Shown in pieces: positions 6,884-41,895 of a stretch of DNA of 64,000 bases. Numbering within the stretch: position 1 is the stretch's first letter; the number at the start of each line of letters is the position of its first letter. Origin of the DNA: an uncultured Vicinamibacterales bacterium. Lineage in GTDB: Bacteria; Acidobacteriota; Vicinamibacteria; Vicinamibacterales; UBA8438. The notes beneath the pieces were generated by a model. That model made no database searches and was not told where the DNA came from. It saw only the letters and a list, made by a program, of their open reading frames with translations. Location: contig OY282382.1 of assembly GCA_958295905.1 (NCBI GenBank), positions 4,894,910-4,958,909 on the forward strand. Direction: 5' to 3'. A program made the translations under genes and the position numbers.

Positions 6884-6924
6884 CCGGCCGGGCCGGCCGG
6901 GCGGCGCCGGAGCGGACCACGGTG

Positions 6925-7165: not shown

Positions 7166-7383
7166 TGGGGCGCCAGGACGCCTCGGGAGGCCAGCCACGC
7201 CGGATACTCCCAGCGGCGGCGTCTCACTTTCCTGACGTGCACCCCCAACCGGGCCCAACCGGCTCGACTCTCGACAGGACTGCGTGTAACATACGCTTCC
7301 GTACCTACTGCTTGTGCGCGTTCCCGCCCCGCGGGCGCGCGCTCTTCTTCGCCACCGGACGCCGGAACGCGGCGAGGGTCGAC

Positions 7384-23669: not shown

Positions 23670-23970
23670 CCTCGCCGCCCGCGGCAACGACCTGTCGCCA
23701 CGGGCTCCCCAACCCCGAGCACCGCCGAACCGGCACCGGCCCCGCCGTCTACCGCCCGACCGGCCCGAACGCCCGGGCGGTGGCCGGCCCGGCCGCGGCA
23801 ACGACCTGTCGCACGTTGAAGGCGGCGATCCTGGCCGCTCTGTCTGACGGCGTGGCCGGCCCGGCCGCGGCAACGACCTGCCGCACGGCCTCCCCGACCC
23901 CGAGCACCGCCGAACCAGCGCCTACCGCCCGACCGACCCGAGCGACTCGAGCAACCGAGCGGTGGCCGGC
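23670..23970 (-). repeat. Tandem duplication spanning the 3' end of the ankyrin gene
   Basis: The end of the gene that stops at 23922 (CTACCGCCCGACCGACCCGA around the stop) recurs at about 23749-23790 as CTACCGCCCGACCGGCCCGA, again with a stop codon. Flanking bases (CGGCAACGACCTG, CCCCGAGCACCGCCGAACC) recur at 23684, 23803 and 23868, so roughly three partial units of 90-100 bp lie here. The copy would encode ATARAFGPVGR in place of the true end LESLGSVGR. The rest of 23472-23669 shows nothing coding. Confidence 0.8.
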
Positions 23971-25766
23971 GCGGCCTCGATGTTGCCGGTGCGGCCGCGG
24001 GCCACGATGGCGTAGGGGGTCTGTCCCCGCCGGTTGACGACGTCGAGGTCGGCGCCGTGCTCGACCAGCAGTTCGACGACGCGGTCGAAACCCTTGTCGA
24101 CGACGTAGTGGAGCGCGGTGTTCCCGTCCTCGTCCACCGCGTTGACGTGCGCGCCCCGGTCGAGCAGGAACCGCACCGTGTCGCGGGTGCCCGCCTCGTC
24201 GTACATCTGGGCCTGGAACGCCGGCGTCTTGTGCAACGTCCGCTCCCGCCGGTCCCACACCGCGTAGCGCCAGCCGGCGCCGGCCGCGAGCATCAGCGGC
24301 GTCCACCCGTTCTTCAGCGGCAGCCGCAGATCGGCGCCGGCCCCGGCGAGGGCCCGCATGACGTCCACCTCGGTGAACTTCGCGGCCAGCGCGAGGGGGG
24401 TCGCGCCCAGCAGATGCTCGCCGAGCATCAATACCTGGCCGTTGCGGGTCACCTTCGTCGCCAGCGTCACCTGGGCGTCGGGGCTGGCGCCGGCCGCGAG
24501 CAGGGCCTCGACCACCGCGAGATCGCCGGTCAGCACCGCCGCGTGCAGGGCGGTGTAGCCGGCGGCGGACGCGTTGGGGTTGGCGCCCCGCGCCAACAAG
24601 GTCAGCACCAGCTCGCGGTGCCCGCTGTGGGCCGCCACCACGAGCGCGCCGGCACCGTCGGGCGCGGTGTCGTCGACGTCGGCGCCGGCGTCGAGCAGCC
24701 GGCGCGCCACCGCCACGTCGCCGTTGCGCGCCGCGAACAGCAACGGCGTGAACCCGCCGACCTGCGTCTCCTCGGCGTCGGTGCCGTAACTGCGCCCGAG
24801 CTCGCCGTACCGCAATTCGGACTGCAGGCGCCGGCTGATGACGAGGCGGCGCGCGCGCGACCGCGCGCCGACGTCCGCACCGCGGTCGATCAGCAGTTGC
24901 ACGACCTCGGGGTGGCGTTGCGCGGCCGCCCACATCAGCGCGGTCTGCTGCTCGAGCGATTCGCGGGCGTTCACGTCGGCCCCCGCGTCGAGGAGGCGCC
25001 GCACCGCCTCGAGGCTGCCGGTCCGGGCGCAGGCCATGAGGACGGTCTCGCCGGTCTCGACCGCCGCGTCGGCGTCGGCTCCGGCCGCGAGCAGCAGCCT
25101 CACCATGCCGGCGTTGGCGTTGCCGCAGGCGAGGGCCAGCGGCGTGACGCCCAGGTCGTTCGCCGCCCCGGCGTCGGCGCCGGCCTCGGCCAGCCGCCGC
25201 GCCACCTCGAGGTCGTCGCGGTAGGCGGCCCAGTGCAGCGCGGTCGCGCCGTCGGGCTGGAATGCGTTCACGTCGACGCCGTCCGGCCCGCCCGCCGTTT
25301 CCAGCAGGGCGGCAATCGCCGCCGCATCCTGCCGCTGGACCGCCTCGACCAAGCGCAGATCGGGGCTCTGGGCGGACGCCGCGGCGACCGCGGGCACGAG
25401 GGCGGCGACCGCGAGAAACCCGAGGCGAGAGCCCCGCCGCCTTCGTCCGGCGACGCCGCCCCCGCGGGCTGCAACGCTCAGCGGCGCGGCGTTGCTCTGC
25501 GGGCGCCCTTGCCGGACAGGCGCCCGAGCCGCGCCTCGCCACGCGGGCGCCGCGCCGATCTCGGCGCAGCGAGAGCCCCGCTGCCTTCGTCCGGCGATGC
25601 GGACCGTGCCGCTCCGCAGAGCCACGTCGCTCCGCCGGCACCCATGCCCGACAGGCGCGCGAGCCGCGCCTTGCCACGCGGGCGCCGCGCCGATCTCGGC
25701 GCAGCGCGTGGTTTCGCCACCGGCTCCTCGGCCGACGGGCCGCGACAGTGCGCTCCGGAGAGACAT
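23922..25766 (-). CDS. Secreted ankyrin-repeat protein (cassette 2)
   Basis: The clear protein begins near 25450 with an arginine-rich n-region and signal peptide (RLGFLAVAALVPAVAAASAQ) and then about eleven ankyrin repeats (GATALHWAAYRDDLEVARRL, QQTALMWAAAQRHPEVVQLL, NGWTPLMLAAGAGW, DGNTALHYVVDKG). No ATG, GTG or TTG lies right before the signal peptide. The start given, ATG 25766, adds about 100 residues built of repeated RGSRCAEIGAAPAWRGAAR-like units; a GTG at 25625 is another choice. Either the start is unusual or the 5' end was altered by tandem duplication. It lies 16 bp after the HXXSHH gene, so it is in the same transcription unit as the second cassette. Confidence 0.8.
   Translation of the reverse strand: MSLRSALSRPVGRGAGGETTRCAEIGAAPAWQGAARAPVGHGCRRSDVALRSGTVRIAGRRQRGSRCAEIGAAPAWRGAARAPVRQGRPQSNAAPLSVAARGGGVAGRRRRGSRLGFLAVAALVPAVAAASAQSPDLRLVEAVQRQDAAAIAALLETAGGPDGVDVNAFQPDGATALHWAAYRDDLEVARRLAEAGADAGAANDLGVTPLALACGNANAGMVRLLLAAGADADAAVETGETVLMACARTGSLEAVRRLLDAGADVNARESLEQQTALMWAAAQRHPEVVQLLIDRGADVGARSRARRLVISRRLQSELRYGELGRSYGTDAEETQVGGFTPLLFAARNGDVAVARRLLDAGADVDDTAPDGAGALVVAAHSGHRELVLTLLARGANPNASAAGYTALHAAVLTGDLAVVEALLAAGASPDAQVTLATKVTRNGQVLMLGEHLLGATPLALAAKFTEVDVMRALAGAGADLRLPLKNGWTPLMLAAGAGWRYAVWDRRERTLHKTPAFQAQMYDEAGTRDTVRFLLDRGAHVNAVDEDGNTALHYVVDKGFDRVVELLVEHGADLDVVNRRGQTPYAIVARGRTGNIEAAPATARLLESLGSVGR
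25430..25760. repeat. Duplicated segments at the 5' end of the ankyrin gene
   Basis: A block containing GCGCCGCGCCGATCTCGGCG occurs at about 25530-25570 and again at 25660-25700, and CCGCTGCCTTCGTCCGGCGA-type sequence occurs at 25432-25460 and 25572-25600. The repeats lie between the only ATG and the signal peptide coding region, so they obscure the true translation start. Confidence 0.7.
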
Positions 25767-25782: not shown

Positions 25783-27147
25783 TCAGATCCCGGTCAGCCG
25801 ATCGGGCCTCGGACCGGTCACGAGCCTCGGGAGCGGTCCCGTGCTGTCGCCGATGCGCTCGACCGGCGCCCCCAGCTTGTCGAGCAGCGACACGTGAAGA
25901 TTAGCGAGCGGGGTGCGGTCGCGTTCCGGATACGCCACGTGCCGGCCCCCGGCGAGCTGCCCCGCCCCGCCGCCGAGCAGGACGAGCGGCAGGTTGTAGG
26001 GAGAATGCGCGTTGCTGTCGCTCATGCCCGCGCCGTACATCAGGATCATGTGGTCGAGCAGCGAACCGTCGCCGTCCGGCGTCGACCGCAGCTTCTCGAC
26101 GAAGCCGGCGAACAGGCTGACGTGATAGCGGTTGATGCGGGTCAGCTTGCGCAGCGCTTCTCCCACCCCGCGGTGGTGCGACAGCGGGTGGTGCGCATCG
26201 GGCACGTCTATCTGGGGATAGGTACGGCCGCTCAGCTCGTGCCCGCTCATGAACGTGGTGACCCGCGTGCGGTCGGTCTGGTGGGCGAGCAACTGCAAGT
26301 CGTACATCAGCCCGGTGTGCTCGGCGAAATCCGCCGGTGCCCCCATCGGCCGGGCCATCAGCGGGACCTCCCGCTCGCCCTGCGCCTCGGCCACCTCGAT
26401 GCGCCGCTCGACGTCGCGCACCGCGTCGAGATAGGCGCCAAGCTTCCGTCGATCGCCGGCGCCGAGGCTGCCGCGCAGCCGGGCCACGTCGGCGCGAACC
26501 GAATCGAGGATGCTGCGCTGCTCGCGGCGGCGCGCCTCGCGGACGGCGGGATCGGTAGTTTCGTTGTCGCCGAACAGCCGCTCGAACACCGCCCGCGGGT
26601 TGTGCTCCATCGGCAGCGGGGTCGCCGAGTCGCGCCACGAGATGGTGTAGGAGAAGGCGCAACTGAACCCGCCGCTGTCGCACGAGCCGGCGAAGTTCGC
26701 CCCTTCGAGACCCAGCTCGAGGGACGCCAGCGGCGTGTGCCGCCCGAGCTCGCGGGCCGCGATCTGGTCCATCGAGATCGCCTCGGGGTTCCACGCGCCG
26801 GGGTGCACGTCGGTCAGGAAGCGGGTCGAGGCACGCGAATGGCTCCCCCCGCGGGTCCCCGGCGGCGGCGTGCAATTCAGCCCGGACAGCACCAGCATCT
26901 GGTCGCGGAACGGCGCCAGCGGCTCGAGAATCGGCGACACCTCGAAGCCGGTGCCGGTGGCCGCGGGCGTCCAGTTCTGCATCACCATGCCGTTGGGCAC
27001 GTAGACCGCGCCGAACCGCACCGGCGCCGCAGCCGCGCGCGCGCTCAGGCCCGGCGCCATGCCGTCGAGCATCGGCAGCGCCAAGCTCGCGCCCAGTCCC
27101 CGCAGCACCGCGCGACGCGGAATCGCCCGCCTCGTGATGAACGTCAT
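25783..27147 (-). CDS. HXXSHH-motif (DUF1552) exported protein (cassette 2)
   Basis: Protein of 454 residues, DUF1552 family. The N-terminus (TRRAIPRRAVLRGLGASLAL) looks like a Tat signal. The family signature appears as DAHHPLSHH. It shares with the two paralogues the blocks FRDQMLVLSGL, IAARELGRHTPLASLELG, ERLFGDNET and LANLHVSLLDKLG. It is more diverged than the other two (GASHSRAS-type region rather than HATSNASF). Start ATG 27147 overlaps the stop of the upstream DUF1592-type gene (ATGA). Same unknown envelope role as its paralogues. Confidence 0.85.
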   Translation of the reverse strand: MTFITRRAIPRRAVLRGLGASLALPMLDGMAPGLSARAAAAPVRFGAVYVPNGMVMQNWTPAATGTGFEVSPILEPLAPFRDQMLVLSGLNCTPPPGTRGGSHSRASTRFLTDVHPGAWNPEAISMDQIAARELGRHTPLASLELGLEGANFAGSCDSGGFSCAFSYTISWRDSATPLPMEHNPRAVFERLFGDNETTDPAVREARRREQRSILDSVRADVARLRGSLGAGDRRKLGAYLDAVRDVERRIEVAEAQGEREVPLMARPMGAPADFAEHTGLMYDLQLLAHQTDRTRVTTFMSGHELSGRTYPQIDVPDAHHPLSHHRGVGEALRKLTRINRYHVSLFAGFVEKLRSTPDGDGSLLDHMILMYGAGMSDSNAHSPYNLPLVLLGGGAGQLAGGRHVAYPERDRTPLANLHVSLLDKLGAPVERIGDSTGPLPRLVTGPRPDRLTGI

Positions 27148-29669
27148 GGCTCCGATCTCCTCATCTGAAACGGCACGCTCTCGACGATGCCCCGAATAAT
27201 CGACGACCAGCGGTGCCCGCCGGCCTCCGCATCGCGCACGATGCGCCGGATCGCGGGCTGGTCGAACGACTCCATCCGGCGTCCGACGGCATAGGTCAGC
27301 AGCTTCTCGGTCACGGTCCGCACCACGCTGGTCTCGTAGGCGAGCACCGCGTGCCGCAGGGCGGCGGGGCCGTCCACCGCGGCGCCGTCGGCGAGCGCCC
27401 CCGCCGCGTCGACCGGCGCCCCGTACTCGTCGGTGGCCCGCCACCGCCCGATGGCGTCGAAATGCTCCAGCGCGAAACCCGGCGGGTCCATCATGCGGTG
27501 GCAGGCGGCGCAGGCGGGGTTGGCCCGGTGCCGCTCCATCCGCTCGCGCATCGTCCGCGGGGCCGACGCCCCGTGGTTCTCCTCGAGCGCGGGCACGTCC
27601 GCCGGGGGCTCGGCCGGCGGCATGCCGAGGACGTTGTCGAGCAGCCACTTGCCCCGCAGCACCGGCGACGTCCGGGTGGGATAGGCGGTCAGCGTCAACA
27701 GGCTCGCGTGCCCCAGCAGCCCGGTGCGGTCGCCGACGGCGGCGACGCGCCGGAAGCGCCCGCCGTAGACGCCGTCCAAGCCGTAGTGCCGGGCGAGCCG
27801 CTCGTTCACGAAGGTGTAGTCGGCGTCGAACAGCTCCATGACGCCGCGGTCGCCGAGCATCTGGCTCTCGAGGAACAGCGTCGTCTCGCGCTCCATGTCC
27901 GCGCGCAGGTTCTCGTCGAACTCGTAGAACACGTCGGCGTCGGGAATCACCCCCCGCACCCGCCCGAGCTGCAGCCACTGGCTGGCGAAGTTGTCGACGA
28001 GGGCCCGCGCCCGGGGATCGGCGAGCATGCGCTCGACCTGCCGGTCGAGTTCGTCCGGCTCGGAGAGGCGGCCGGCCTCGGCCGCCGCGAGCAGCGGCTC
28101 GTCGGGGATGTCGCTCCACAGGAACAGCGACAGGCGGGACGCGAGCTCCAGATCGCTCAACCGGTACGCGGTCCCGGGGGGCAGGCCGGGCGGATCGCGC
28201 TCGATGCGGAACAGGAACTCCGGGGCCACCAGCAGACGCTCGATCGCCTTCCGGATGCCGGTCTCGAAGCCGCCCTCGGCGCGGCCCTGCTCGTAGAACG
28301 CCAGCAGGGTGCCCAGATCGCCCCCGGTCAGCGGACGCCGATACGCGCGCCGCCCCAAGGCCGACAGAATCTCGCCCGCGCAGCGGCCGTCGTCGGCCGG
28401 CGCGGCCGCCGCCCCGCCCCCGAGCGCGGCGGCCTCGGCCACGGCGCCGGCTGCGGCCACTTCCGCGGCCGGCCGGCAACTGAAGATGCGGCGCCGGCTC
28501 GCGGTGTCGCCCGGACCGGCGGCGTCGTAGGGACCGGCGATCTCCACCCGCTCGACCGCCGCGTGTCCGTCGTAGAACCCGAGCCCGCTCAGCGAGAACC
28601 CGGACAGCCGCCGTTCGAGAATCCCCGTCGCCTCGGTCCGCGCGGCCACGAACGACGCCCCGACGATGTGCTCGCCGGCCGGGACCGGCAGGGTGACCTC
28701 CAGGTCGATGTCGGCGTCGATCGACACGTACTGCTCCCACGCGGGGTCGCCCCGGATGGTGCCGAAGAAGCTGTAGGCCGAGGGGTACCCGAAACGGTCG
28801 GCGCCGCCCACGGTGAACCGCCGCACCAGGCGCCCGTCGAGGCGGACCTCGATCTGCTGGGGGGTTCCCATGCCGACGATGTAGTCGTAGATCATCCGCC
28901 GCAACCGGATCTTCACGCGGTAGTCGCCGTCGAGCGGAAAGTAGTGGCGGACGGCCATCCCGCCGCGGGACCCGAACGGGAGGTCCTCGCTCATGCGGTC
29001 GTCCTGGTACAGCAGCCGCGGCGTCGACCAGGTGGCGGCGGCGAACCCGGGACCGACGGCGGGGTCGCCGACCGCGAGCCGGCTGATGCGGTTGGCGGCG
29101 GAGAGATAGCGGTCGAACAGGGCGGGCGACACCGAGAGCGCCTCGGCGTCGGTGCTGAACCCCTCCTGGCTGACGTCGTCGGGCGGAAACAGCAGCCAGC
29201 CCTCGTCCACCTCGAGGCCGAGCACGCTCCGCACCGCGTTGCGGTACTCGGGCGTCGTCAGACGGCGCACGGCGGGCCGGCCGGGATCGGGCCGCTCGGC
29301 CGCGACGGCGTCGAGGGCGCTCTCGAGCCCGCCGAGAAACTGCTCGTGGACGTCCGCGGCCGGACGCGGACGTCCAGCCGGCGGCATCATGCCGAGCCGC
29401 AGCTTGCGGACGATCTGCTCCCATACCGCCGCGTCAGCCCCGACGTCCCCGGCATCGAGCCGGTCGAAGGCCACCGGCACCAGTCCCCGGGCCTCCCGGG
29501 CCGCGGTGTGGCACGCTAGACAGTAGCGCTGCAGCAACGCCTGGGCGGCGTCGGCGTCGTGCGGCGACGCCGGTTTCTGCCGGGCCGACGCCGCTGGCGG
29601 AACCAGGACGGCCAGCGCGATCACGAACGCGGTCGTGCGCCCGATGGCCCGTGTCACCGTCGACAGCAT
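27144..29669 (-). CDS. DUF1592/DUF1588/DUF1585-type secreted cytochrome protein (cassette 2)
   Basis: Exported protein of 841 residues, same domain order as the protein at 7384-9753. Signal peptide TTAFVIALAVLVPPAASARQ, heme site YCLACH near residue 50, MMPPAGRPRP, then LTTPEYRNAVRSVLG (DUF1587), a carbohydrate-binding-like module (IRLRRMIYDYIVGMGTP), an alanine-rich insert of about 30 residues, the DUF1595/1592 region (LSLFLWSDIPDEPLLAAAEA), DUF1588 with CAACHRMMDPPG, and DUF1585 at the end. It is about 50 residues longer than cassette 1, mostly through that insert. The ATG at 29669 directly precedes the signal peptide. A short duplicated stretch upstream may contain its promoter. Confidence 0.85.
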   Translation of the reverse strand: MLSTVTRAIGRTTAFVIALAVLVPPAASARQKPASPHDADAAQALLQRYCLACHTAAREARGLVPVAFDRLDAGDVGADAAVWEQIVRKLRLGMMPPAGRPRPAADVHEQFLGGLESALDAVAAERPDPGRPAVRRLTTPEYRNAVRSVLGLEVDEGWLLFPPDDVSQEGFSTDAEALSVSPALFDRYLSAANRISRLAVGDPAVGPGFAAATWSTPRLLYQDDRMSEDLPFGSRGGMAVRHYFPLDGDYRVKIRLRRMIYDYIVGMGTPQQIEVRLDGRLVRRFTVGGADRFGYPSAYSFFGTIRGDPAWEQYVSIDADIDLEVTLPVPAGEHIVGASFVAARTEATGILERRLSGFSLSGLGFYDGHAAVERVEIAGPYDAAGPGDTASRRRIFSCRPAAEVAAAGAVAEAAALGGGAAAAPADDGRCAGEILSALGRRAYRRPLTGGDLGTLLAFYEQGRAEGGFETGIRKAIERLLVAPEFLFRIERDPPGLPPGTAYRLSDLELASRLSLFLWSDIPDEPLLAAAEAGRLSEPDELDRQVERMLADPRARALVDNFASQWLQLGRVRGVIPDADVFYEFDENLRADMERETTLFLESQMLGDRGVMELFDADYTFVNERLARHYGLDGVYGGRFRRVAAVGDRTGLLGHASLLTLTAYPTRTSPVLRGKWLLDNVLGMPPAEPPADVPALEENHGASAPRTMRERMERHRANPACAACHRMMDPPGFALEHFDAIGRWRATDEYGAPVDAAGALADGAAVDGPAALRHAVLAYETSVVRTVTEKLLTYAVGRRMESFDQPAIRRIVRDAEAGGHRWSSIIRGIVESVPFQMRRSEP

Positions 29670-30027
29670 CGCTTCTCTCGTCTGGAGGGCGACTCCTCGA
29701 TTGAATCGTCCGCCACCTCCGCTACTGTAGTGCCAGCCGGGCTCGATGGCAACCAGATTCCCCACGTGCCCGCCCGAGGCGGCGCCGGTCCCACTGAACC
29801 GAGCGCCGGCCGGGCTCGATGGCAACCACCCCTCACGCGGCATTGCAGCCTCCGTATTGCCCGAGCGCCCGCAGGGCGCCACGGAACCGACGGCCGAACG
29901 CACCCATCCGGCGCCCGGTTCTTCGTGCCGACGGCACGTGCCGACGCCGCCCCCGGTCGCGAGGGGAACCGGGCTCGCGGAAGCGGCGGTTCCGGAAGCT
30001 TGTCTCGGCCGGTGAGCGCCGGCGCGA
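29670..30027. other. Intergenic gap with a 20-bp direct repeat
   Basis: GCCGGGCTCGATGGCAACCA occurs at 29736-29755 and 29809-29828. No gene is recognised. The gap lies between the start of the cassette 2 operon and the 3' end of the broken vapC. Confidence 0.6.
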
Positions 30028-30457
30028 TCAGCGGGGCAGCCGCTCGGCCGCGAATCCCGGGAACCGGTCGAAGTCGCGGTCCTCGGTGAGGAGCGCGCGA
30101 ACGCCGGCCTCGCGGCAGAGCGCGACAATCTGGGCGTCGAAGACAAGGTTGCCGGCCGCGTCGACCTCGCGCACCGCGTCCGCGAGCATTTGCGGGAAGC
30201 GGAGTCCGGGCAGGAGAAGCTCCACGCTCGGCGAGGCGAGCAGCCGCTGCATCGCGTCGCAAGCCCCATCGGGGCTGAGAGGATCGAGAATACGCGAATG
30301 GGTGACGACCCGCAGGAACTCACCGAGACAGAACACCGGGATTGCCCAGTGGCCGGCTCCTTACTGCGAGGGCGATGACACGACGGCTGGCGGCCTCGTG
30401 CCTCGGCGACTTGCGTCTGTGCGCGTGCACGAGCACGTTGGTGTCGACGGCGATCAC
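30028..30457 (-). pseudogene. VapC-like PIN toxin, frameshifted
   Basis: A PIN-domain toxin split over two frames. The GTG at 30457, overlapping the antitoxin stop, begins VIAVDTNVLVHAHRRKSPRH and continues to VIALA; a TGA would end this frame near 30320. The expected continuation WAIPVFCLGEFLRVVTHSRI and the rest, with acidic residues in NLVFDAQIVALC and LLTEDRDF, are in the next frame, ending at 30028. One extra base near 30350-30360 accounts for it, and the length (430 bases) agrees. If real, the toxin is dead while its antitoxin persists; a sequencing error is the alternative. Confidence 0.8.
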
Positions 30458-30693
30458 CTGCGACCTTCCATCCACTCGTACAGCGCATCCCGATCGTCGA
30501 AGTTCACGCCGGGCGTCGGGCGCCCTTCCGTCGTCAGCAACTCGAGGCGGTACGGTGCGGGCGGTGCGCGCCGGTGATCGAGGTACCGCCGCACCGCCCG
30601 CTCGACGAGCTGCGTCAGCGTATCGCCGTCGCGGACGGCGAGCTCCTTCGCCTCGCGGAACAGGTGGTCGTCGAAGCTGAGGGTCGTTCGCAT
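30454..30693 (-). CDS. Ribbon-helix-helix antitoxin, VapB-like
   Basis: Antitoxin of 79 residues. The N-terminal MRTTLSFDDHLFREAKELAV is a ribbon-helix-helix DNA-binding domain with its beta strand (TTLSFD) and two helices (LFREAKELAV, TLTQLVERAVRRYLDH); the tail (PGVNFDDRDALYEWMEG) should clasp the PIN toxin. Its stop overlaps the vapC start. Two CAGA-type palindromes just upstream are probable operators, so it would repress itself. The reading frame is intact. Confidence 0.85.
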   Translation of the reverse strand: MRTTLSFDDHLFREAKELAVRDGDTLTQLVERAVRRYLDHRRAPPAPYRLELLTTEGRPTPGVNFDDRDALYEWMEGRR

Positions 30694-30726
30694 ACAGAAA
30701 TCTGCTCACGAGGCACAGACATCTGT
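30694..30726 (-). promoter_or_regulatory. Paired palindromic operators of the vapBC unit
   Basis: ACAGAAATCTG at 30694-30704 and the perfect palindrome ACAGACATCTGT at 30715-30726 lie directly upstream of the antitoxin start. Their centres are 21 bp apart, two turns of DNA, which suits cooperative binding of ribbon-helix-helix dimers. A TTGACA box on the minus strand (30724-30729) overlaps the second site. Role inferred from position and symmetry. Confidence 0.6.
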
Positions 30727-30769
30727 CAAGCGCGGCAACATCCGGCTGTCAAGCGCGGCAACATCCGGC
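30724..30769. repeat. Perfect 23-bp tandem duplication
   Basis: The 23 bases at 30724-30746 are repeated exactly at 30747-30769 (start TGTCAAGCGCGGCAACATCC). Each copy carries TTGACA on the minus strand, so the -35 box of the vapBC promoter may be doubled. Confidence 0.9.
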
Positions 30770-30833
30770 GCCCCCGAGCCGGAGAGCACCGGCGCCGCCC
30801 GGAGTCCCGCGGCAACCCGGTGTCGACCCGGTG

Positions 30834-30863
30834 TTTACCCGCGGGAGGGTTGGTGTCATAATT
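30834..30863 (+). promoter_or_regulatory. Candidate sigma-70 promoter for the PHM-like gene
   Basis: TTTACC (30834-30839) and CATAAT (30858-30863) are 18 bp apart, about 45 bp before the start at 30909. A ribosome site AAGGAG follows at 30895-30900. This is one of the few good -10 boxes in the GC-rich gaps here. Prediction only. Confidence 0.4.
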
Positions 30864-30908
30864 CCCCATTACTCGTCACCTCCGCGTACCGGTTGAAGGA
30901 GTTCATTC

Positions 30909-32222
30909 ATGAGAATCCAGGCGCGAACGCTCGCGGTCGTCATGGCGGTCGGAGCGCTGTCCGTCATCGCCGCTCCCAGCCAAGCGAACGACGGCGACGT
31001 CACCTACTACCGGGATGTCCTGCCGATCATCCAGGACAACTGCCAGAACTGCCATCAGCCGGAGGGTCAGAACCTCGGCGGGGTGCTGGCCCCGATGTCG
31101 TTCATGAGCTACCAGGAGACCCGCCCGTGGGCCCGCGCCATCGCCCACAAGGTGGAGGCGCGCGAGATGCCGCCGTGGTACGCCTCGGAGCCGAAGGGCG
31201 TCTTCTCGAACGAGCGCCTGCTGACCGACGCGGAGATCGAGACCCTGCTGAGCTGGGTCGAGGCGGGCGCCCCCGCCGGTGACCGGGCCGACGCGCCCGC
31301 CCCGCGGCAGTTCGTCGAGAACACGAGCGGCGGCTGGTCGCTGGGCACGCCCGACTACGTGTTCAAGCTCGACGAGCCCTACCACATCGACGACGACGTG
31401 TACGACCTGAACATCAGCTTCTTCAAGACCCTGACGGAGGCGGACCTGCCCGAGGACGTCTGGGTCCGCGGCTGGGAGTTCAAGACCGACGCCGGCACCG
31501 TCGGCCACCACATGTGCGGCTTCGTGCGCGGCCCCGCCCCGGGCGGGCGGCCGATCGAGGAGGTCGCGGCCGAGGAGGGCGCGGCGGGCACCGGCCAACT
31601 GCTGACGTGCATCGCGGAAGGCGCCGAGGCGGTCATGCTGCCCGACGGCTACGGCCTGCGGCTCGAGGCGGGGTCGACGCTGACCTACAACATGCACTAC
31701 CACAAGGATCCGGGCGAGGGCACGGGCATCTGGACGCAGCCCGAGATCGCCTTCTTCGTCGAGGAGCGGCCGGTGCAGTACAAGGTGGTCAACGACTCGA
31801 TCGGCAACACCGGATTCGAGATTCCGCCGGGCCACCCCAACTACCGGATCGGCATGTCCCGCACGCTCGATCAGGACATCCACGTGCTGACCTACTGGCC
31901 GCACGCCCATCTGCGCGGCAGCGCGTCCCGCTACACCGCGTTCTACCCCGACGGCCGCGAAGAGCTGCTGCTCGACGTGCCCCACTACGACCAGGGGTGG
32001 CAGGAGACCTACAAGTACAGCGAGCCGAAGCTGCTGCCCGAGGGCACGCGCATCGACATCAGCTTCTGGTACGACAACTCGCCGGAGCGCGCGGCGCGCT
32101 CCGACTTCCGATCGAGCGAGTCGCCCGGCCACGGTCCCCGGACCGACGACGAGATGTCGCTGGGCTTCATCGGCTACGCCGTCGAGCTCGACGAGCCGGC
32201 GAACACGACCGACGACGACTAA
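30909..32222 (+). CDS. Secreted cytochrome c fused to PHM-like copper monooxygenase domain
   Basis: Exported protein of 437 residues with a signal peptide (LAVVMAVGALSVIAAPSQA). The N-terminal ~95 residues are a cytochrome-like domain with heme site NCQNCHQ near residue 46 and MPPWY near 93. The remainder resembles the type II copper ascorbate-dependent monooxygenase fold (peptidylglycine hydroxylase-like): HHMCGFVRG near 200, YNMHYHKD near 263 and WPHAHLRG near 330, histidine groups in the positions expected for copper ligands. Heme attached to a copper monooxygenase suggests electrons come from the respiratory chain. The NHL propeller encoded two genes on resembles the amidating lyase partner. 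Fold call is inference; substrate unknown. Confidence 0.7.
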   Translation: MRIQARTLAVVMAVGALSVIAAPSQANDGDVTYYRDVLPIIQDNCQNCHQPEGQNLGGVLAPMSFMSYQETRPWARAIAHKVEAREMPPWYASEPKGVFSNERLLTDAEIETLLSWVEAGAPAGDRADAPAPRQFVENTSGGWSLGTPDYVFKLDEPYHIDDDVYDLNISFFKTLTEADLPEDVWVRGWEFKTDAGTVGHHMCGFVRGPAPGGRPIEEVAAEEGAAGTGQLLTCIAEGAEAVMLPDGYGLRLEAGSTLTYNMHYHKDPGEGTGIWTQPEIAFFVEERPVQYKVVNDSIGNTGFEIPPGHPNYRIGMSRTLDQDIHVLTYWPHAHLRGSASRYTAFYPDGREELLLDVPHYDQGWQETYKYSEPKLLPEGTRIDISFWYDNSPERAARSDFRSSESPGHGPRTDDEMSLGFIGYAVELDEPANTTDDD

Positions 32223-32300
32223 GCAAGACCGTCCTGCCGGCGGACCCGCGCCCCCTCCGGGCATGGGTCTGCCGGTTTCCCTCCCCGGTTGGATAGCGCC

Positions 32301-33683
32301 ATGCCTGCTCCGCGATTCCTCCTCGTTGCGTGTTCCCTGGTCCTGTGCGTCCTGACGCAGACCGCCCCGCCCGCCCGCGCGGGACAGGCCGACGGCGGCG
32401 CGGGCGGTCAGATCCAGTCCTCGCTGACCCTGAACGGACGGCGGGTGAGCGTGACCTACGACCCCGCCCTGCCGTCGGATCACCGATCGCTGCTGGTGCT
32501 GCGCGCCGGCTCCACGCAGGCGGCGGTGCGGCTGGGGCGGCTCGAGGGCCACCGGTCGCTGGCGATCGGGACGCTGGCCCCGGATCCGGACGAGCCGCGC
32601 GGCCCCGCCCCGGACCACGATCTCTGGCTGATGCGCACCGCCGCGGGCTGGGTGCTGGACGCCCGGCCGGTCGAGGAGCCCGTGGATCCGTCCGACGGCG
32701 AAGACGCCGCCGACCCGCCCGGGGAATCCACCGACCCGCCTGGGGCAGAAGCAGAACAAGGCAACGAAGAACAAGGTCACGAGAATGCCGCGGACGCCGG
32801 CGTGGCGGCCGACGACGATACTCCCGGCGTCGCCGAGGCGGACAACACCGGCGCGGACGCCGCCGACGCGGACGCCAGTGGATCGGATGTCGCCGAGGCG
32901 GATGCCGACCGCGATGAAGCGGCCGGCGAAGAAGCGGACGATACGCCGCGGCCCGGCCGGATCCTTTTGGCCCACCGCCCGCGCGCGGCAGAAGCAGGGC
33001 GCCTGTCCGTCGGGTTGCTGCCGAGCGGGGACGCGGCCGGCACGCTGGCCCTGTCGTGGGGCCGGAACGACTGGACCGCGGACTTCGAGTTCGTCGAGCT
33101 GCCGCGGCCGCCCCGCCCCCCGCGCACGTCCAACGTCAGTCCGGGGACCAGCCTGACCCGCGACTCGGACGTCGAGGCCCGCTACCGGGCGGCGGCGCTG
33201 GGATCCCGCAACGAGACCGCCCTCGTGACGCCGAGCGGCGCCCGCATCCAGGTGCTCTTCGAGCAGGAACTCGGCACCGACGGCGTCGACTTCGCGGCGC
33301 TGGAGTCGATTGGCGACGGCGACCTCGTGCAGCTCACGCGGGGCGCGGTCATCCGCCTCCGAAGCGAGGTTCCCCTGCGGTTCGGCGACACCCTCATCCC
33401 CACCGGGAACCTCGCCCCCGACTTCCCCGGCTCGTACGGCCTTTGGCTGCGGGCGGCCGGCTCGGGCTGGACCCTCGTCTTCAACAACGAGCCGGACTCG
33501 TGGGGAACCCAGCACGACCCGGCGTTCGACGCAGCCGCGATCGACATCATCCACACCCACGGCGGTCCCTACGAGGCCCGCCCCCTGGCCGTGTCCCTGC
33601 TGCCGGTGGACGACGACGAGGGCCGCCTCGTGATCCACTGGGGCCGGCACGTCTGGGCCGCCGACTTCACGGTCGAACCCTGA
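32301..33683 (+). CDS. Secreted DUF2911-like protein with long acidic linker
   Basis: Exported protein of 460 residues with a signal peptide (LLVACSLVLCVLTQTAPPARA). Two similar beta domains are present, each of the DUF2911 kind: the second shows GDTLIPTGNLAPDFPGSYGL, then WTLVFNNEPDSWGTQHDPAF and HWGRHVWAADF; the first has a shorter equivalent (RILLAHRPRAAEAG ... SWGRNDWTADFEF). Between about residues 125 and 215 lies an acidic low-complexity stretch rich in aspartate, glutamate and alanine. I do not know the function. It sits between the copper monooxygenase-like gene and the NHL propeller on the same strand with short gaps. Confidence 0.65.
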   Translation: MPAPRFLLVACSLVLCVLTQTAPPARAGQADGGAGGQIQSSLTLNGRRVSVTYDPALPSDHRSLLVLRAGSTQAAVRLGRLEGHRSLAIGTLAPDPDEPRGPAPDHDLWLMRTAAGWVLDARPVEEPVDPSDGEDAADPPGESTDPPGAEAEQGNEEQGHENAADAGVAADDDTPGVAEADNTGADAADADASGSDVAEADADRDEAAGEEADDTPRPGRILLAHRPRAAEAGRLSVGLLPSGDAAGTLALSWGRNDWTADFEFVELPRPPRPPRTSNVSPGTSLTRDSDVEARYRAAALGSRNETALVTPSGARIQVLFEQELGTDGVDFAALESIGDGDLVQLTRGAVIRLRSEVPLRFGDTLIPTGNLAPDFPGSYGLWLRAAGSGWTLVFNNEPDSWGTQHDPAFDAAAIDIIHTHGGPYEARPLAVSLLPVDDDEGRLVIHWGRHVWAADFTVEP

Positions 33684-33750
33684 CCAGCGAGTTCGCGGCG
33701 ATCTTCCTCCGATTTCAGGAAGCTCGGACGAGACCGGCAGTCTGGAGGCA

Positions 33751-34890
33751 ATGATGAGACGGCGTCATTTCTCGGTACTCGTTGCCCTCGTGATGGCCGT
33801 CGCGGCGACAATCGTCGGCGGGGGCCTGTCTCGGCCGGCGGCCCTGACCGGCGGCGGACAGGCCGGGCCGGCCGACGCCGCGGCGTTCCAGTTCGACGCG
33901 ACCTGGCCGAAGCCGCTGCCCGACAATTGGACGCTGGGCAACGTGGTGGGGGTCGCGGTGGACGCCCGCGATCACGTCTGGGTCGTGCACCGTCCCGGCA
34001 GCCTGACCCTGCAGGAACGGGGCGCGGACGAGACGCCGCCGCTGGCCGAGTGCTGCCGCCCGGCGCCGCCGATCATCGAGTTCAACCAGGCCGGCGACGT
34101 GGTGAACGCCTGGGGCGGGCCCGGCGACGGCTACGAGTGGCCGGAGGCGGAGCACGGCATCTTCATCGACCACCTGGACAACGTCTGGCTGGGCGGCAGC
34201 GGCGGCAACGACGCCCAGGTGCTGAAGTTCACCCGGGACGGCGAGTTCCTGCTGCAGATCGGCCGGCAGGGTCAGGGCGGGGGCAGCAACGATTTGGCGA
34301 ACTTCGGCCAGCCGGCCGAGATCGACGTCGACCCCGAGACGAACGAGGTGTTCATCGCGGACGGTTACGGGAACCGCCGGGTCGCGGTCTTCGACGCCGA
34401 TACGGGGGAGTACAAGCGCCACTGGGGCGCCTACGGCAACCGGCCCACCGACGAGCCCTACACCTACGATCCCGACGCCCCGCTCTCGCAGCAATTCGGG
34501 CGTCCCGTCCACTGCGCGACCCTGTCCGACGACGGGCTCGTCTACGTCTGCGACCGCGTCAACGACCGCATCCAGGTGTTCCGCAAGGACGGCACGTTCG
34601 TGAACGAGGTGGTCATCGCGGGCCGGACCCGCGGGTTCGGGTCGGCGTTCGACGTGGACTTCTCACCCGACGGCGACCAGCAGATCCTCTACAACATCGA
34701 CGGGATGAACCAGAAGGTGTGGCTGATCGAGCGATCGAGCCTCGACATCCTCGGGTCGTTCGGCTTCGGCGGGCACATGGCCGGCGGGTTCACCGCCGCC
34801 CACAGCCTCGCCGTCGACTCGAGCGGCAACATCTACGTCGGCGAGACGCTGGAGGGCAAGCGGGTGCAACGGTTCGTCAACCGGCAGTAG
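33751..34890 (+). CDS. Secreted NHL-repeat propeller, PAL-like
   Basis: Exported protein of 379 residues; the N-terminal segment FSVLVALVMAVAATIVGGGL is a signal peptide or anchor. Six NHL blades follow (VVGVAVDARDHVWVVHRP, AEHGIFIDHLDNVWLGGSGG, PAEIDVDPETNEVFIADGYG, NRRVAVFD, CDRVNDRIQVFRKDG, HSLAVDSSGNIYVGET). This blade pattern is that of peptidyl-alpha-hydroxyglycine amidating lyase and related lyases. Its neighbour at 30909 resembles the hydroxylase half of the same reaction, so the two could act in sequence; this is inference, as NHL propellers have many functions. Two ATGs at 33751 and 33754 are equally possible. Confidence 0.75.
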   Translation: MMRRRHFSVLVALVMAVAATIVGGGLSRPAALTGGGQAGPADAAAFQFDATWPKPLPDNWTLGNVVGVAVDARDHVWVVHRPGSLTLQERGADETPPLAECCRPAPPIIEFNQAGDVVNAWGGPGDGYEWPEAEHGIFIDHLDNVWLGGSGGNDAQVLKFTRDGEFLLQIGRQGQGGGSNDLANFGQPAEIDVDPETNEVFIADGYGNRRVAVFDADTGEYKRHWGAYGNRPTDEPYTYDPDAPLSQQFGRPVHCATLSDDGLVYVCDRVNDRIQVFRKDGTFVNEVVIAGRTRGFGSAFDVDFSPDGDQQILYNIDGMNQKVWLIERSSLDILGSFGFGGHMAGGFTAAHSLAVDSSGNIYVGETLEGKRVQRFVNRQ

Positions 34891-35073
34891 CCCGGCATCG
34901 CAGCCGCGCGGCGGCGCCCGTAATCGGGTCAGGCGCGCCCGCGGGAAGCCTCTTATTCGACGCGGTAGAACGACACGAGCGCCGACCGGCCCCAGCCGTC
35001 CGGCGGGAACGGTCGGTCGCGGGGGTGACCGTGGGCGATGACGGTCGCGGTGCGTCGTTCACGTCCCGGCCGC

Positions 35074-35195
35074 GGTCAGCGCACGAGGCGTTCGTCGCGC
35101 ACCGAAGTCGCGGCTCCGATCGCCTGACGCCCCGGACCCCGCGCCCTGCCACCGCGCAGACTCCCGGTCAGCGCACGAGGCGTCCGTCGCGCACC
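35074..35195. repeat. 3' end of the M29-like gene copied downstream
   Basis: The 30 bases at 35166-35195, which contain the last codons (RDGRLVR) and stop of the gene ending at 35168, recur at 35074-35103 with one mismatch (start GGTCAGCGCACGAGGCG). The remainder of the gap 34891-35073 shows no gene. Confidence 0.85.
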
Positions 35196-36337
35196 CAGAC
35201 TTCGCCGCCCACCGTCACCGTCGTGTCGGTGAAGAAGTTCCAGCGGACGTAGCCGCCGGTGACGGTGCCGCCCAGCTCGGAGTTGTCGCCGAGCGACAGC
35301 CGCACGATACCCGCCCCGTAGCCGTAGTACGGAATCCACGGGTTGCGCTCGGGCACGGCGAGCAGGGGGTTGAACCCGAGCGCGAACTCCCGGAAGGCCC
35401 GCGCCTCCTCGGGCACGCCGGCCAGCTCCGCCTCGGCCGCCGCCAGCCCCGACGCCGCGGTCACCCCGGCGACCCGCCCGCCCTCGATGGTGACGCGCAG
35501 GCCGGTGACCGGCCGGCCGTCCCACTGCGACGGGGGGAACACGATGACGCCGTCGACGGTGTCCTCGACCGGGGCGACCCGGATCGCCCCGGACGGCAGC
35601 TCGATCTCGCGGTCGATCAGGATCACGCCCTGATCGGTGCGCGCCTTCGAGGCGTCGCCGTCACCGAAGTTCACCGGGCGGTCGCCGATGCGGAACCGGA
35701 TGTCGGTGCCCAGCGGCGACGTCACCCGCACCTCCGCGCCGCGCATCGCGGCGGCGAAGCGCCGCTGGACCGCCGCCAGCGCCGCATAGTCGGTGTCGAG
35801 CAGGGCGCGCTGATAGGTGGCGTCGATGACCGCCGGCGACGGCATGGGCTGTCCCGGCAGGGGGAACGCGCTGCCGTTCTGGGTCCAGTGGAAGTGAATC
35901 GTGCGGCCGATGCCCTCGTGCAGCAGGTCCTGCAGCGCCGCGTACACCGCGTGGTCGGGCCGCGCGCCGGGCAGCATGACAGCGCCGTCGAAGTCGCGCA
36001 GCATCCCGCGGTAGACGGCGCGCGCGGCCGCCGCGCCCCGCGCCAGCACGTCGCCGTCCCAGTCTTCGGGATACGGCTCCTCGATGACGTCGATCACCCC
36101 GAGGTCGACGGCCCCGGCCCGCAGCAGGGCGTACCGCAGCGGGGGAATCAGCTCGTCGAACTGCCCCGGACGCGCCACGAGCAGAATCCGCTCGCCCGGC
36201 TCGGGCGCGAGCTGCGCCACCAAGCGCTCGGCCATCGCCTCCCACCGCATGGTCAGGCGCGGCTGGGCCGGGGCGGAACCGGCCCCGAGCGACAGGATCA
36301 GGCCGGCGGCGGCAACGATGCGCGTGAAACGCTTCAT
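35168..36337 (-). CDS. Secreted aminopeptidase-like protein (M29-like)
   Basis: Exported protein of 389 residues with a signal peptide (RIVAAAGLILSLGAGSAPAQ). The body resembles thermophilic aminopeptidase M29: an N-terminal Rossmann-like part (ERLVAQLAPEPGERILLVAR, YALLRAGAVDLGVIDV), then GAEVRVTSPLGTDIRFRIGD, LPSGAIRVAPVEDTVDGVIV, an EFALGFNPL stretch and NSELGGTVTGGYVRWNFFTD at the end, where M29 enzymes carry metal ligands (H/E/D). Export is unusual for M29 enzymes. The ATG at 36337 starts the signal peptide. Upstream lies a 55-bp direct repeat. Confidence 0.65.
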   Translation of the reverse strand: MKRFTRIVAAAGLILSLGAGSAPAQPRLTMRWEAMAERLVAQLAPEPGERILLVARPGQFDELIPPLRYALLRAGAVDLGVIDVIEEPYPEDWDGDVLARGAAAARAVYRGMLRDFDGAVMLPGARPDHAVYAALQDLLHEGIGRTIHFHWTQNGSAFPLPGQPMPSPAVIDATYQRALLDTDYAALAAVQRRFAAAMRGAEVRVTSPLGTDIRFRIGDRPVNFGDGDASKARTDQGVILIDREIELPSGAIRVAPVEDTVDGVIVFPPSQWDGRPVTGLRVTIEGGRVAGVTAASGLAAAEAELAGVPEEARAFREFALGFNPLLAVPERNPWIPYYGYGAGIVRLSLGDNSELGGTVTGGYVRWNFFTDTTVTVGGEVWVRDGRLVR

Positions 36338-36352
36338 GGTCGGATTCTCCCG

Positions 36353-36460
36353 ATGCGTGGACCGCGGCCGCGAAGCCGGCGGGCGGCCAGGAACAGTGAG
36401 CGCGATATGCGTGGACCGCGGCCGCGAAGCCGGCGGGCGGCCGGGAACAGTGAGCGCAAC
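36353..36460. repeat. 55-bp direct tandem repeat
   Basis: A unit starting ATGCGTGGACCGCGGCCGCG and ending in AACAGTGAGCGC occurs at about 36352-36404 and 36407-36459 with one mismatch, just upstream of the peptidase gene. It could duplicate a regulatory site. No coding role is seen. Confidence 0.85.
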
Positions 36461-36609: not shown

Positions 36610-37167
36610 CTACGGCCAGAGCCAGCCGAACGTGCCGGCCGTCAGCAGCGCGTAGATCACGCCGTCGAACATCGTCAGCAGCGTGAAGCGCCAACTGCGG
36701 TACCACCAGATGGTGCTCTGCGGAATCGCCAGCGCGTAGCCGGCGAAGGCCACGAGCCCGACGACGCGGAAGACCAGACCGTAGTCGGCGCCGGGCCCGA
36801 TGGTGAGGCCGGCCGTGTAGCCGGCGACGACGCCGACGACCAAGCAGTAGACGAACCACTGGCCCAAGCTCTTGCCGATGGCCATCGGGCCGTTCGGGAG
36901 CACCGTCAGAAACGCGACCGGACCTCGCTTCAGTTGCTCCGCGAACTCCGGAGAGTTCATCTCCTTCATGCTCGCCGAGCGCGGGACGGCGTAGTCACCC
37001 GGGGGAATGTCGAACGGCCTGAGCGCGTCCATCACCCGCTGTTGATCGGGCACCGGTCCGGCGTCGCCGACGTGATACGACAGCAACATGTGGATGACGG
37101 AGCTGGCGACGAAGACGAGCACCGCCGACAGCAGAACCGGCAGCCACAGGGACAAGATGCACACCAT
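36610..37167 (-). CDS. Four-helix membrane protein, unknown
   Basis: Integral membrane protein of 185 residues. Hydrophobic segments: [20 protein letters not shown] at the start, [40 protein letters not shown] and [20 protein letters not shown] at the end. Between the first and second is a soluble loop ([20 protein letters not shown]). I do not recognise the family. Three copies of a 30-bp tandem repeat abut its start codon. Confidence 0.6.
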
Positions 37168-37168
37168 T

Positions 37169-37258
37169 TGACGACCTCCCGCCGAGACGGCTTCTGGTTG
37201 ACGACCTCCCGCCGAGACGGCTTCTGGTTGACGACCTCCCGCCGAGACGGCTTCTGGC
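37169..37258. repeat. 30-bp tandem repeat, three copies
   Basis: TGACGACCTCCCGCCGAGAC followed by GGCTTCTGGT is repeated three times head to tail at 37169-37198, 37199-37228 and 37229-37258 without variation. The array begins two bases from the start codon of the membrane protein gene, so it forms its untranslated leader. Confidence 0.95.
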
Positions 37259-37673
37259 GCGAGCATAACCCATATCCCGGCCTCGGACCGACTCGGCCCC
37301 CGCGATCAGGTCCACGTCAGATTTGTGAAGTGACTGCCCGAAGTGACTGCCCCTGGCGCCGTCGGGTTGACGATTTCCGTGCCGTTCTCGACATCGAGGC
37401 CCTCCCGAACGGCTTTTCTTGGGGCCTTGGCCCCTCGGGGGCCAGTTCCAGCGGCGGTGCCTCACTTTCTTGACGTGCCCCCCCGCGATCCGCGGATCGA
37501 AGGAATTGCGGTAACATCCCTCGCATGCCGTCGGGACGCGACGTCCCGCCGGCGTCCGCCGGGCATCCTCGCCGCAGACGGCGCGGGGCCTGTCGCGTCG
37601 ATGGGCGGGAAGGCGGAGCCGCGGGGCGACGCCCTCCCGACCAGATTGCCGGACCGATGGAAAGGGGTACACG
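37259..37673. other. Upstream region of the gamma-glutamyltransferase gene
   Basis: No gene. Bases 37446-37485 (CCAGCGGCGGTGCCTCACTT and following) closely resemble 7208-7247 upstream of the cassette 1 cytochrome gene, and both regions have GTAACAT a little further on (37511-37517 and 7286-7292) with TGCG before it. This may be a shared promoter with an extended -10 box, but spacing differs between the two. Confidence 0.4.
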
Positions 37674-39431
<1,758 letters not shown>

Positions 39432-40285: not shown

Positions 40286-41398
40286 GTGCGGAGATTGTAC
40301 ATCCACGAACAGGTCGACTGGCCTCAGCTCCACTGGAAGCCCGAGGCGCTGGCCGATGCGCTGGCCGACGTCAGGCACCGGCAGGGCCGCCTCCTCGGCC
40401 GAATGGAGGGCCTCGGCTTCGATCTTCGGCGCGAGGCGGTGCTCGGCACGTTGGTCGAGGACGTGGTGAAGAGCAGCGACATCGAGGGGGAGACGCTCGA
40501 TGCGGCAGAGGTTCGCTCGTCGATCGCGCGGCGTCTCGGCCTGGACACGGGCGGTCTCGGGCGGGCCGATCGCGACGTCGAGGGCGTCGTCGAGATGATG
40601 CTCGACGCGACCGGGCACCACGACCAGCCGCTCACGGCGGAACGGCTGTTCGACTGGCACGCGTCCCTGTTCCCGACCGGTCGCAGTGGAATGCGGCGCA
40701 TCGCGGCCGGGCGATGGCGCGACGAGCAAGCCGATCCGATGCAGGTGGTCTCCGGTCCGATCGGCCGGGAGCGGGTGCATTTCGCAGCGCCGTCCGCCGC
40801 CCGGCTCGACGCGGAGATGCGTGCGTTTCTGGATTGGTTCGAGGCCCCCGCCGAGAGCGACCCGGTGCCGCGGGCGGGGTTGGCGCACCTCTGGTTCGTG
40901 ACCATCCACCCGTTCGAGGACGGAAACGGCCGCATCGCCCGCGCCGTCGCCGACATGGCCCTGGCCCGCTCGGAGGGCAGTTCGCAGCGCTTCTACAGCA
41001 TGTCGTCGCAGATCCGGGCCGAGCGCGCCGCCTACTACGGCGTGCTGGAACGGACGCAGCGCGGTACGACCGACGTTACCGAGTGGATGACGTGGTTTCT
41101 CGCCTGCCTCGGCCGGTCGATCGAGGCGGCGGAGACGGCGCTGGCGACCGTGCTCGCGAAGGCCCGGTTCTGGGAGCGCGCGGCCGGCCTTGCCCTCCAT
41201 GAACGCCAGCGGCGTGTTCTGAACCGTGTCCTGGACGGCTTCGAGGGAAAGCTCACGACGTCTAAGTGGGCCAGCCTCGCCCAGTGCTCCCAGGACACGG
41301 CGCTGAGGGACATCACGGTCCTGGTCGACCACGGCCTTCTGGCCCGCAATCCCGGCGGCGGACGCAACACGAGCTATCACCTCGTCACCGACGCTTGA
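40286..41398 (+). CDS. Fic family protein (AMP transferase type)
   Basis: Protein of 370 residues. The Fic motif HPFEDGNGRIARA lies near residue 209 with the catalytic histidine and phosphate-binding loop; the inhibitory helix motif SSDIEGE lies near 63, the class II arrangement that blocks ATP until relieved. The N-terminus (YIHEQVDWPQLHW) is DUF4172-like and the C-terminus (SKWASLAQCSQDTALRDITV) is a winged helix that may bind DNA. Fic proteins usually attach AMP to target proteins. GTG start at 40286; an upstream hairpin may control it. Next come a toxin-antitoxin pair on the opposite strand. Confidence 0.9.
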   Translation: MRRLYIHEQVDWPQLHWKPEALADALADVRHRQGRLLGRMEGLGFDLRREAVLGTLVEDVVKSSDIEGETLDAAEVRSSIARRLGLDTGGLGRADRDVEGVVEMMLDATGHHDQPLTAERLFDWHASLFPTGRSGMRRIAAGRWRDEQADPMQVVSGPIGRERVHFAAPSAARLDAEMRAFLDWFEAPAESDPVPRAGLAHLWFVTIHPFEDGNGRIARAVADMALARSEGSSQRFYSMSSQIRAERAAYYGVLERTQRGTTDVTEWMTWFLACLGRSIEAAETALATVLAKARFWERAAGLALHERQRRVLNRVLDGFEGKLTTSKWASLAQCSQDTALRDITVLVDHGLLARNPGGGRNTSYHLVTDA

Positions 41399-41472: not shown

Positions 41473-41895
41473 CTACGTCCGCGCGAACCAGTTCTCCACG
41501 CTCAGATCCGTGAAGTCGTCGAAATCGCCCGCGTTGCGCGTGACCAGCGTCAAGCCGTTGGTCGCTGCAATCGCGGCGATCTGGCCGTCCACGAAGGGCG
41601 GCGTCCGCCCGCGACCGGTCAACCGGGCGCGTTCTTCGGCATACCATCGGGCGGCATCGCGATCGTACGGCAGGATCTCCAGGCGCAGGATCCGCTTCAG
41701 GTAGCCCGCCAACTGCTGCTTGCGCACGCCGTCCGGCATTCGGGCCAGTCCATACTGCAGCTCGTGGACAATCGGAGCCGCCGTGCACACCTCGTGCGTA
41801 CGGGCCAGCAGCCGTGACTGGACGCCGGGGTCGGGGCACCGCCGGGAGGGTTCGGAGAGGACGTTCGTGTCGAGCAGGTACCTCAATCCGGCCAT
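41473..41895 (-). CDS. PIN-domain toxin, VapC/FitB-like
   Basis: Toxin of 140 residues. Acidic PIN residues are seen in YLLDTNVLSEPSR, IVHELQYGLARM, PPFVDGQIAAIAATNG and LVTRNAGDFDDF, the usual FitB-like spacing (LVTRNxxDF near the end). The start overlaps the antitoxin gene by 13 bases. Likely a ribonuclease held inactive by the product of 41883-42170. Frame intact. Confidence 0.9.
   Translation of the reverse strand: MAGLRYLLDTNVLSEPSRRCPDPGVQSRLLARTHEVCTAAPIVHELQYGLARMPDGVRKQQLAGYLKRILRLEILPYDRDAARWYAEERARLTGRGRTPPFVDGQIAAIAATNGLTLVTRNAGDFDDFTDLSVENWFART

Follow-up and report, generated by a model that had tools for sequence, protein, structure and literature searches.

Two adjacent genes of an uncultured Vicinamibacterales bacterium were judged, with moderate confidence, to encode an ascorbate-independent, heme-wired copper C-H hydroxylase (gene 1) and its dedicated DUF2911 accessory protein (gene 2), a reading that draws on gene order, residue conservation and structural modeling. 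The genes lie in a window of 64,000 nucleotides, which is the whole stretch of DNA that was analysed. The source genome comprises 6.3 Mb, and its nearest named relatives, as judged by gene 1, are Vicinamibacteria/Acidobacteria MAGs. The elements of the locus on the forward strand are as follows.

30834..30862, forward strand: promoter-like site (TTTACC-17-CATAAT, extended -10) 5′ of gene 1, a consensus match only.
30909..32222, forward strand: gene 1, a fusion of cytochrome c and a PHM/DBH-type copper monooxygenase, apparently exported, 437 aa.
32301..33683, forward strand: gene 2, a tandem DUF2911-like protein, apparently exported, the conserved partner of gene 1, 460 aa counted from the ATG.
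33751..34890, forward strand: gene 3, a PAL-like NHL propeller, probably a lineage-restricted neighbour, 379 aa.

The three consecutive open reading frames, which together span 30909-34890, all show a strong third-position GC bias. This bias speaks for real genes, and the possibility that the frames arose by chance was dropped; together with the domain matches described below, it bears out the three genes of the initial sequence-only reading. Gaps of 78 bases (genes 1 and 2) and 67 bases (genes 2 and 3) separate the frames, and an alternative TTG start lies upstream of the gene 2 ATG, at 32289. A signal-like stretch was recognized by eye at the N-terminus of each of the three products. The promoter-like site is the sole sigma-70-like match in 30600-35200 (mean in shuffled sequences, 0.1), and no terminator-like site was found on the forward strand between genes 1, 2, and 3. 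It is plausible, from these signals, that the three genes share a single transcript.

Gene 1 was mapped against a 56-row alignment of its homologues (A2), and against PHM and DBH structures, which located the following features.

30909..30986, forward strand: signal peptide, ~26 residues, assigned by eye.
31041..31055, forward strand: heme-binding CQNCH (C45, C48, H49), invariant in 56/56 rows.
31167-31169, forward strand: M87, the likely second axial heme ligand, invariant in 56/56 rows.
31320..32198, forward strand: PHM/DBH-like two-domain copper monooxygenase part, residues ~138-430, with ~146-430 aligned to PHM structures.
31506..31511, forward strand: CuH ligands H200 and H201 (PHM H107 and H108), invariant in 56/56 rows and placed by PHM/DBH alignment.
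31695..31697, forward strand: CuH ligand H263 (PHM H172), invariant in 56/56 rows and aligned.
31902..31910, forward strand: CuM ligands H332 and H334 (PHM H242 and H244), invariant in 56/56 rows and aligned.
32154..32156, forward strand: CuM ligand M416 (PHM M314), invariant in 56/56 rows and aligned.

Gene 1 belongs to the PHM/DBH family, to which it adds an N-terminal heme domain: its copper ligands align with those of the known enzymes, are conserved throughout the 56 rows, and sit in a matching structure. A Pfam search identified a Cytochrom_C domain at residues 42-118 (22.0 bits, exceeding the cut-off of 21.3) and a Cu2_monoox_C match at residues 319-424 that lies under its cut-off (15.9 bits; cut-off 23); two paralogues in the same genome exceed the latter, with 25.1 and 24 bits. 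No NCBIfam family scored above its cut-off for gene 1, and a single weak match to SoxX was returned. A search with the 56-row profile retrieved human DBH at 3.4e-5 and rat PHM at 3e-4; in these profile alignments, the HH, H, HxH, and M copper motifs of DBH and PHM line up with the gene 1 ligands. The AF2 model (pLDDT 85.1, pTM 0.81) has PHM as its best Foldseek match (9.8e-14). VIA-align superimposed the model on DBH with a Z-score of 21.9 (rmsd 3.0, 271 residues aligned) and on PHM with a Z-score of 21.3 (rmsd 2.9, 258 residues aligned); the best match outside the family, a PNGase, reached a Z-score of 9.0. The six copper ligands, the CXXCH motif, and M87 are invariant in rows that range from 28 to 91% identity to gene 1. 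These rows consist of gene 1 and 55 of the 65 loci of the named-genome scan, and the omitted loci (L120, L127, L138, L148, L157, L158, L162, L169, L171, and L172) are fragments, contig ends, or near copies. A PHM-like domain carrying its own cytochrome c domain, as had been proposed from the sequence, is thus confirmed by the fold and by the Cytochrom_C match, and the two copper sites for which structure prediction had been suggested as a check were recovered in full.

The animal enzymes PHM and DBH, known from the synthesis of amidated hormones and noradrenaline, are textbook users of ascorbate. Gene 1 has in common with PHM (PDB 1phm, 3mll, 5wja) the two-domain fold and all six copper ligands, but it differs in having a cytochrome c domain in front, and the identity is only ~17-19%. 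DBH (PDB 4zel) is both its best structural and its best profile match; DBH carries a DOMON domain and uses ascorbate as the reductant, whereas gene 1 carries cytochrome c. A further difference from PHM concerns the substrate. In PHM, the residue two positions before the HxH motif is R240, which binds the carboxylate of the peptide substrate. The corresponding position 330 of gene 1 is occupied by Trp in 29 rows, Met in 15, Phe in 4, Ile in 3, Leu in 2, Val in 2, and Tyr in 1 (n=56), and by Arg in none of the 56; DBH likewise has a residue other than Arg at this position. Judged by this position, the family-wide lack of the Arg argues against C-terminal glycine peptides as the substrate of gene 1, and an assignment of gene 1 as a PEPTIDYLGLYCINE enzyme acting in the manner of PHM was rejected on the same grounds. 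No evidence for a peptide substrate of gene 1 was found.

The closest parallels to the domain arrangement of gene 1 were seen in redoxin - cytochrome c - Cu2_monoox_C proteins of Planctomycetota and Verrucomicrobiota, which show the same domain order and the same invariant ligands, but differ in possessing an extra redoxin domain and, often, EF-hand domains. When eight gene 1 homologues were scanned with Pfam, all five planctomycete and verrucomicrobial proteins showed redoxin, cytochrome, and Cu2_monoox_C matches, with the redoxin further N-terminal, and the three acidobacterial homologues showed no redoxin match. Because all five of these proteins have both domains, heme and copper domain in one chain is, as far as domain matches reveal, the rule across the gene 1 family. 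No ascorbate-dependent monooxygenase together with a cytochrome c domain was found in the literature searched. The fused heme suggests, at the level of domain architecture, that PHM/DBH-type chemistry may be powered here without vitamin C.

Comparative studies of gene order revealed that gene 2 accompanies gene 1 throughout one subfamily. In the named-genome scan, 29 of the 32 gene 1 subfamily loci (L108-L138 and L169) have a gene 2-like frame in the same orientation immediately 3′ of gene 1, and at the three exceptions (L119, L138, and L169) the contig ends within or just past gene 1. No such frame was present in the fetched DNA of 30 more distant loci of the planctomycete/verrucomicrobial type (L139-L168, at least three of which are Acidobacteria), or of L170-L172. 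Genes with a DUF2911 neighbour form one clade (SH-aLRT 99) in a 76-row gene 1 tree that was built by a quick method and has 14 open forks. Within the source genome, the 64% paralogue of gene 1 has a DUF2911 neighbour, and none of the 19 others has one within ~4 kb.

A phylum-wide survey gave a similar picture. The 297 genomes examined were an even draw of the phylum with five to six candidates scored per genome; the cross-table was built from 84 gene 1 rows (those at E <= 1e-90) and 58 of 60 DUF2911 rows, with the two weak rows G000:C1:3904114 and 3904257 left out. Among the scored candidates, each of the 17 gene 1 rows with E <= 1e-160 is immediately followed by a DUF2911 gene, versus one of the 67 weaker rows (E 2e-125, genome G239), and all seven full-length gene 2 matches (E < 1e-120) are found directly 3′ of gene 1 subfamily genes. 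For 10 of the 17 (family f55), the DUF2911 matches cover just the second half of gene 2, and the two f55 partners in G239 are single-domain proteins above the Pfam DUF2911 cut-off (39.3 and 36.5 bits). From these matches, the gene 1-DUF2911 pair seems to be older than the tandem form of gene 2 in the window. The remaining 40 of the 58 DUF2911 rows do not adjoin a listed gene 1, and DUF2911 therefore has uses outside the gene 1-2 unit. A comparison of sister genomes showed, in addition, that genes 1 and 2 come and go together as a single block. The DUF2911-like protein, which the earlier reading had placed between the PHM-like and PAL-like genes, is on this genomic evidence a true and fixed partner of gene 1.

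The DUF2911 (PF11138) match of gene 2 scored 25.4 bits when searched directly and 27.2 bits in the genome search, compared with a cut-off of 27. The likeness to DUF2911 is seen in the second half of gene 2, as well as in the single-domain f55 partners; gene 2 differs in having two copies, the first being degenerate and interrupted by acidic sequence.

32682..32945, forward strand: acidic low-complexity stretch interrupting the first DUF2911-like copy, with low pLDDT, absent or variable in relatives.
33204..33677, forward strand: second DUF2911-like copy, well conserved, with 19 of the 23 invariant A3 columns at residues 330-452.

Alignment A3 comprises 26 of 30 gene 2 copies; L113 (N run), L116 (contig end), L123 (extended), and a second, incomplete copy at L130 were left out. 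The acidic stretch is disordered, and its length varies among relatives. Residues 296-452, the second copy together with a short stretch ahead of it, hold 20 of the 23 invariant columns, including E397, D399, W401, Q404, and H450, and from this clustering we infer that the working site of gene 2 lies in the second copy. A role as a copper chaperone was dropped, as A3 shows a single invariant His and neither Met nor Cys is invariant in it. A PDB sequence search gave only weak matches, of the low-complexity stretch to designed proteins; a PDB fold search with the whole model gave no confident match (Z < 5; E > 0.2), and an NCBIfam search gave none. DUF2911 was mentioned once in the literature searched, and neither a function nor a solved relative was found in the literature and structure searches.

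Two genes divergent from gene 1 offer a different context for the pair.

~25783-27186, reverse strand: HXXSHH/DUF1552 gene, divergent from gene 1, which it often adjoins in the closest relatives.
~27144-29684 (ORF to 30488), reverse strand: PSCyt3/PSD2-5 (DUF1588/1585/1592/1587/1595) cytochrome gene, divergent.

Genes 1 and 2 might serve this HXXSHH/DUF1552 - PSCyt/PSD pair in a joint oxidative attack on envelope carbohydrates or other polymers, a proposal that appears unlikely. Of the 11 fetched loci whose gene 1 is at least 74% identical, seven have an orthologous HXXSHH gene (81-92%) divergently beside it, and the PSD gene (72-85%) is also present in six of these seven. PMC5615132 describes PSCyt genes as abundant, conserved in organization, and without known function, and mentions a suspected role in carbohydrate metabolism, which would fit such an attack. 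However, the neighbour was not seen where genes 1 and 2 are more distant from those of the window (L074-L081 and L094-L097), and the HXXSHH/PSD pair persists without genes 1 and 2 at locus L086. DUF1592 together with DUF1552 was not found in the literature searched.

Gene 3 was part of the pathway originally envisaged. It encodes an NHL propeller (Pfam, 49.6 bits) that matches rat PAL (PDB 3fvz) at 4.3e-13, or at 9.3e-17 by profile, so the PAL-like gene that had been noticed two genes away from gene 1 is what it seemed to be. Residues R81, H135, Y206, H254, R269, and H351 are invariant in 19/19 rows; the first five align with 3fvz, and H351 falls within the range aligned to it. In PAL, the zinc-binding His residues are H585, H690, and H786, and R533, Y654, and R706 are the catalytic Arg and Tyr residues. 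The propeller and its His, Tyr, and Arg residues thus match PAL, but gene 3 is a separate protein and is not tied to gene 1. Its own family is represented in the source genome by eight paralogues at E < 1e-40.

A PHM-PAL pathway is quite unlikely; in it, a glycine-type amide would be hydroxylated at its alpha carbon by gene 1 and the resulting carbinolamide cleaved by gene 3, with gene 2 assisting. Such a pathway would be consistent with the shared strand of the three genes and the lack of a forward-strand terminator-like site between them, with the intact PAL residues of gene 3, with the order 1-2-3 that is kept in genus g1 (3/3 genomes) and in one g8 genome, and with PHM-like/PAL-like neighbours elsewhere (G018:C77, G015:C23, and G006:C197). 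Against it, gene 3 adjoins genes 1 and 2 in only four (the source genome, G001, G002, and G009) of 13 genomes in which orthologues of genes 1 and 3 both occur, with orthologues defined at E <= 1e-184 for gene 1 and E <= 2e-195 for gene 3. For the other nine, it was not found in the 1.6 to ~9.6 kb fetched behind gene 2. Ten further genomes have gene 1 without a gene 3 orthologue, and two show the reverse. Pairs of gene 1 and gene 3 family members within 4 kb numbered 1 against 0.22 expected in the source genome (P 0.20); in five genomes there were 3, with a single gene 3 entering two of them, where 1.27 were expected (P 0.14). Both values, estimated from match lists merged by hand, put the adjacency of the two families at chance level. 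G009 and G021, of the same genus, are collinear on both sides with 90-92% DNA identity; positions 4979-8662 of L070, which carry genes 1 and 2, are missing from L086, where an intact gene 3 still adjoins the PSD gene. The lack of Arg at the PHM R240 position also speaks against this pathway. Of the three-gene co-occurrence that had been put forward as a check, the linkage of genes 1 and 2 therefore stood and that of gene 3 did not, and a place for the PAL-like gene in the pathway was not supported. By gene order, gene 3 is probably only a local, lineage-restricted neighbour of genes 1 and 2, although it may be carried on their transcript at this locus.

Least probable is that gene 1 retains the fold but has lost monooxygenase activity, and now serves as a carrier or sensor, of redox or copper type. 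In favour of this, its family is large (21 genes in the source genome, with split matches merged) and divergent, and its Cu2_monoox_C score falls under the Pfam cut-off; against it, both copper sites are complete across phyla in all 56 rows, the CuM Met included. PMC6123673 names H107, H108, H172, and M314 of PHM and states that loss of any CuH His inactivates the enzyme, which, taken with the conserved ligands, argues for catalysis by gene 1.

The heme-wired hydroxylase reading would make genes 1 and 2 a two-gene envelope unit. Gene 1 would most likely hydroxylate an unactivated C-H bond of its substrate with O2, which would be activated at CuM (H332, H334, and M416), while CuH (H200, H201, and H263) would supply the second electron. 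The fused heme c is proposed to re-reduce both coppers in place of ascorbate, and electrons would hence be drawn from the respiratory chain or from periplasmic dehydrogenases as the donors upstream of the heme. Gene 2 may bind or hand over the substrate or product, or may perform a second step. A more specific version, in which DUF2911 substitutes for PAL and acts on the hydroxylated product by C-N or C-O cleavage, so that the unit forms an ascorbate-free, heme-wired counterpart of PHM-PAL, is unlikely. If true, DUF2911 would represent a novel class of lyases, acting on carbinolamides or hemiacetals, in which a single-domain partner turned tandem.

The hydroxylase-accessory assignment has two consequences for the families concerned. 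With cytochrome c in the same chain across acidobacterial, planctomycete, and verrucomicrobial rows, the proposed respiratory electron route becomes directly testable, and the fixed DUF2911 partner offers a way into the function of a protein family mentioned just once in the literature searched.

Comparison of two loci from the same genus revealed that the cytochrome c-copper monooxygenase gene (gene 1) and its tandem DUF2911-like partner (gene 2) form a discrete 3.7 kb block, which is present in L070 of genome G009 (4979-8662) and cleanly absent from L086 of genome G021 (9414-9526). Apart from this block, the two genomes are collinear. Locus L129 carries two gene 1-gene 2 pairs placed tail to tail (gene1>gene2> <gene2<gene1; 6001-11121), and in L130 a further, convergent gene 2 sits where the contig ends.

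The gene 2 homologue of L123 (7417-9804) has an open reading frame that extends to 796 codons, and a Pfam scan of this extended homologue revealed no additional Pfam domain. In genus g2 (L075, L076, and L078), gene 2 is followed by a gamma-glutamyltranspeptidase-like gene, in the position that is occupied in the window by gene 3, the PAL-like NHL propeller; this gene matches the gamma-glutamyltranspeptidase of the window (37674-39431) at 34%. PHM-like and PAL-like genes were observed as neighbors elsewhere: two PHM-like genes flank one PAL-like gene in contig G018:C77 (33320-39313), and PHM-like genes have PAL-like genes upstream in G015:C23 and G006:C197, with which loci L222 and L223 are listed.

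Other features of the window are as follows.

23922-25766 (-): long ankyrin-repeat protein
30028-30693 (-) and 41473-42170 (-): pairs of small genes resembling, by eye, PIN-type toxin-antitoxin modules
36330-36440 and 36900-37300: short in-frame DNA repeats
40286-41398: DUF4172-Fic/DOC family protein

The in-frame repeats were recognized from peptides that recur in the translated open reading frames, namely RGPRPRSRRAA and a sequence of 10 residues.
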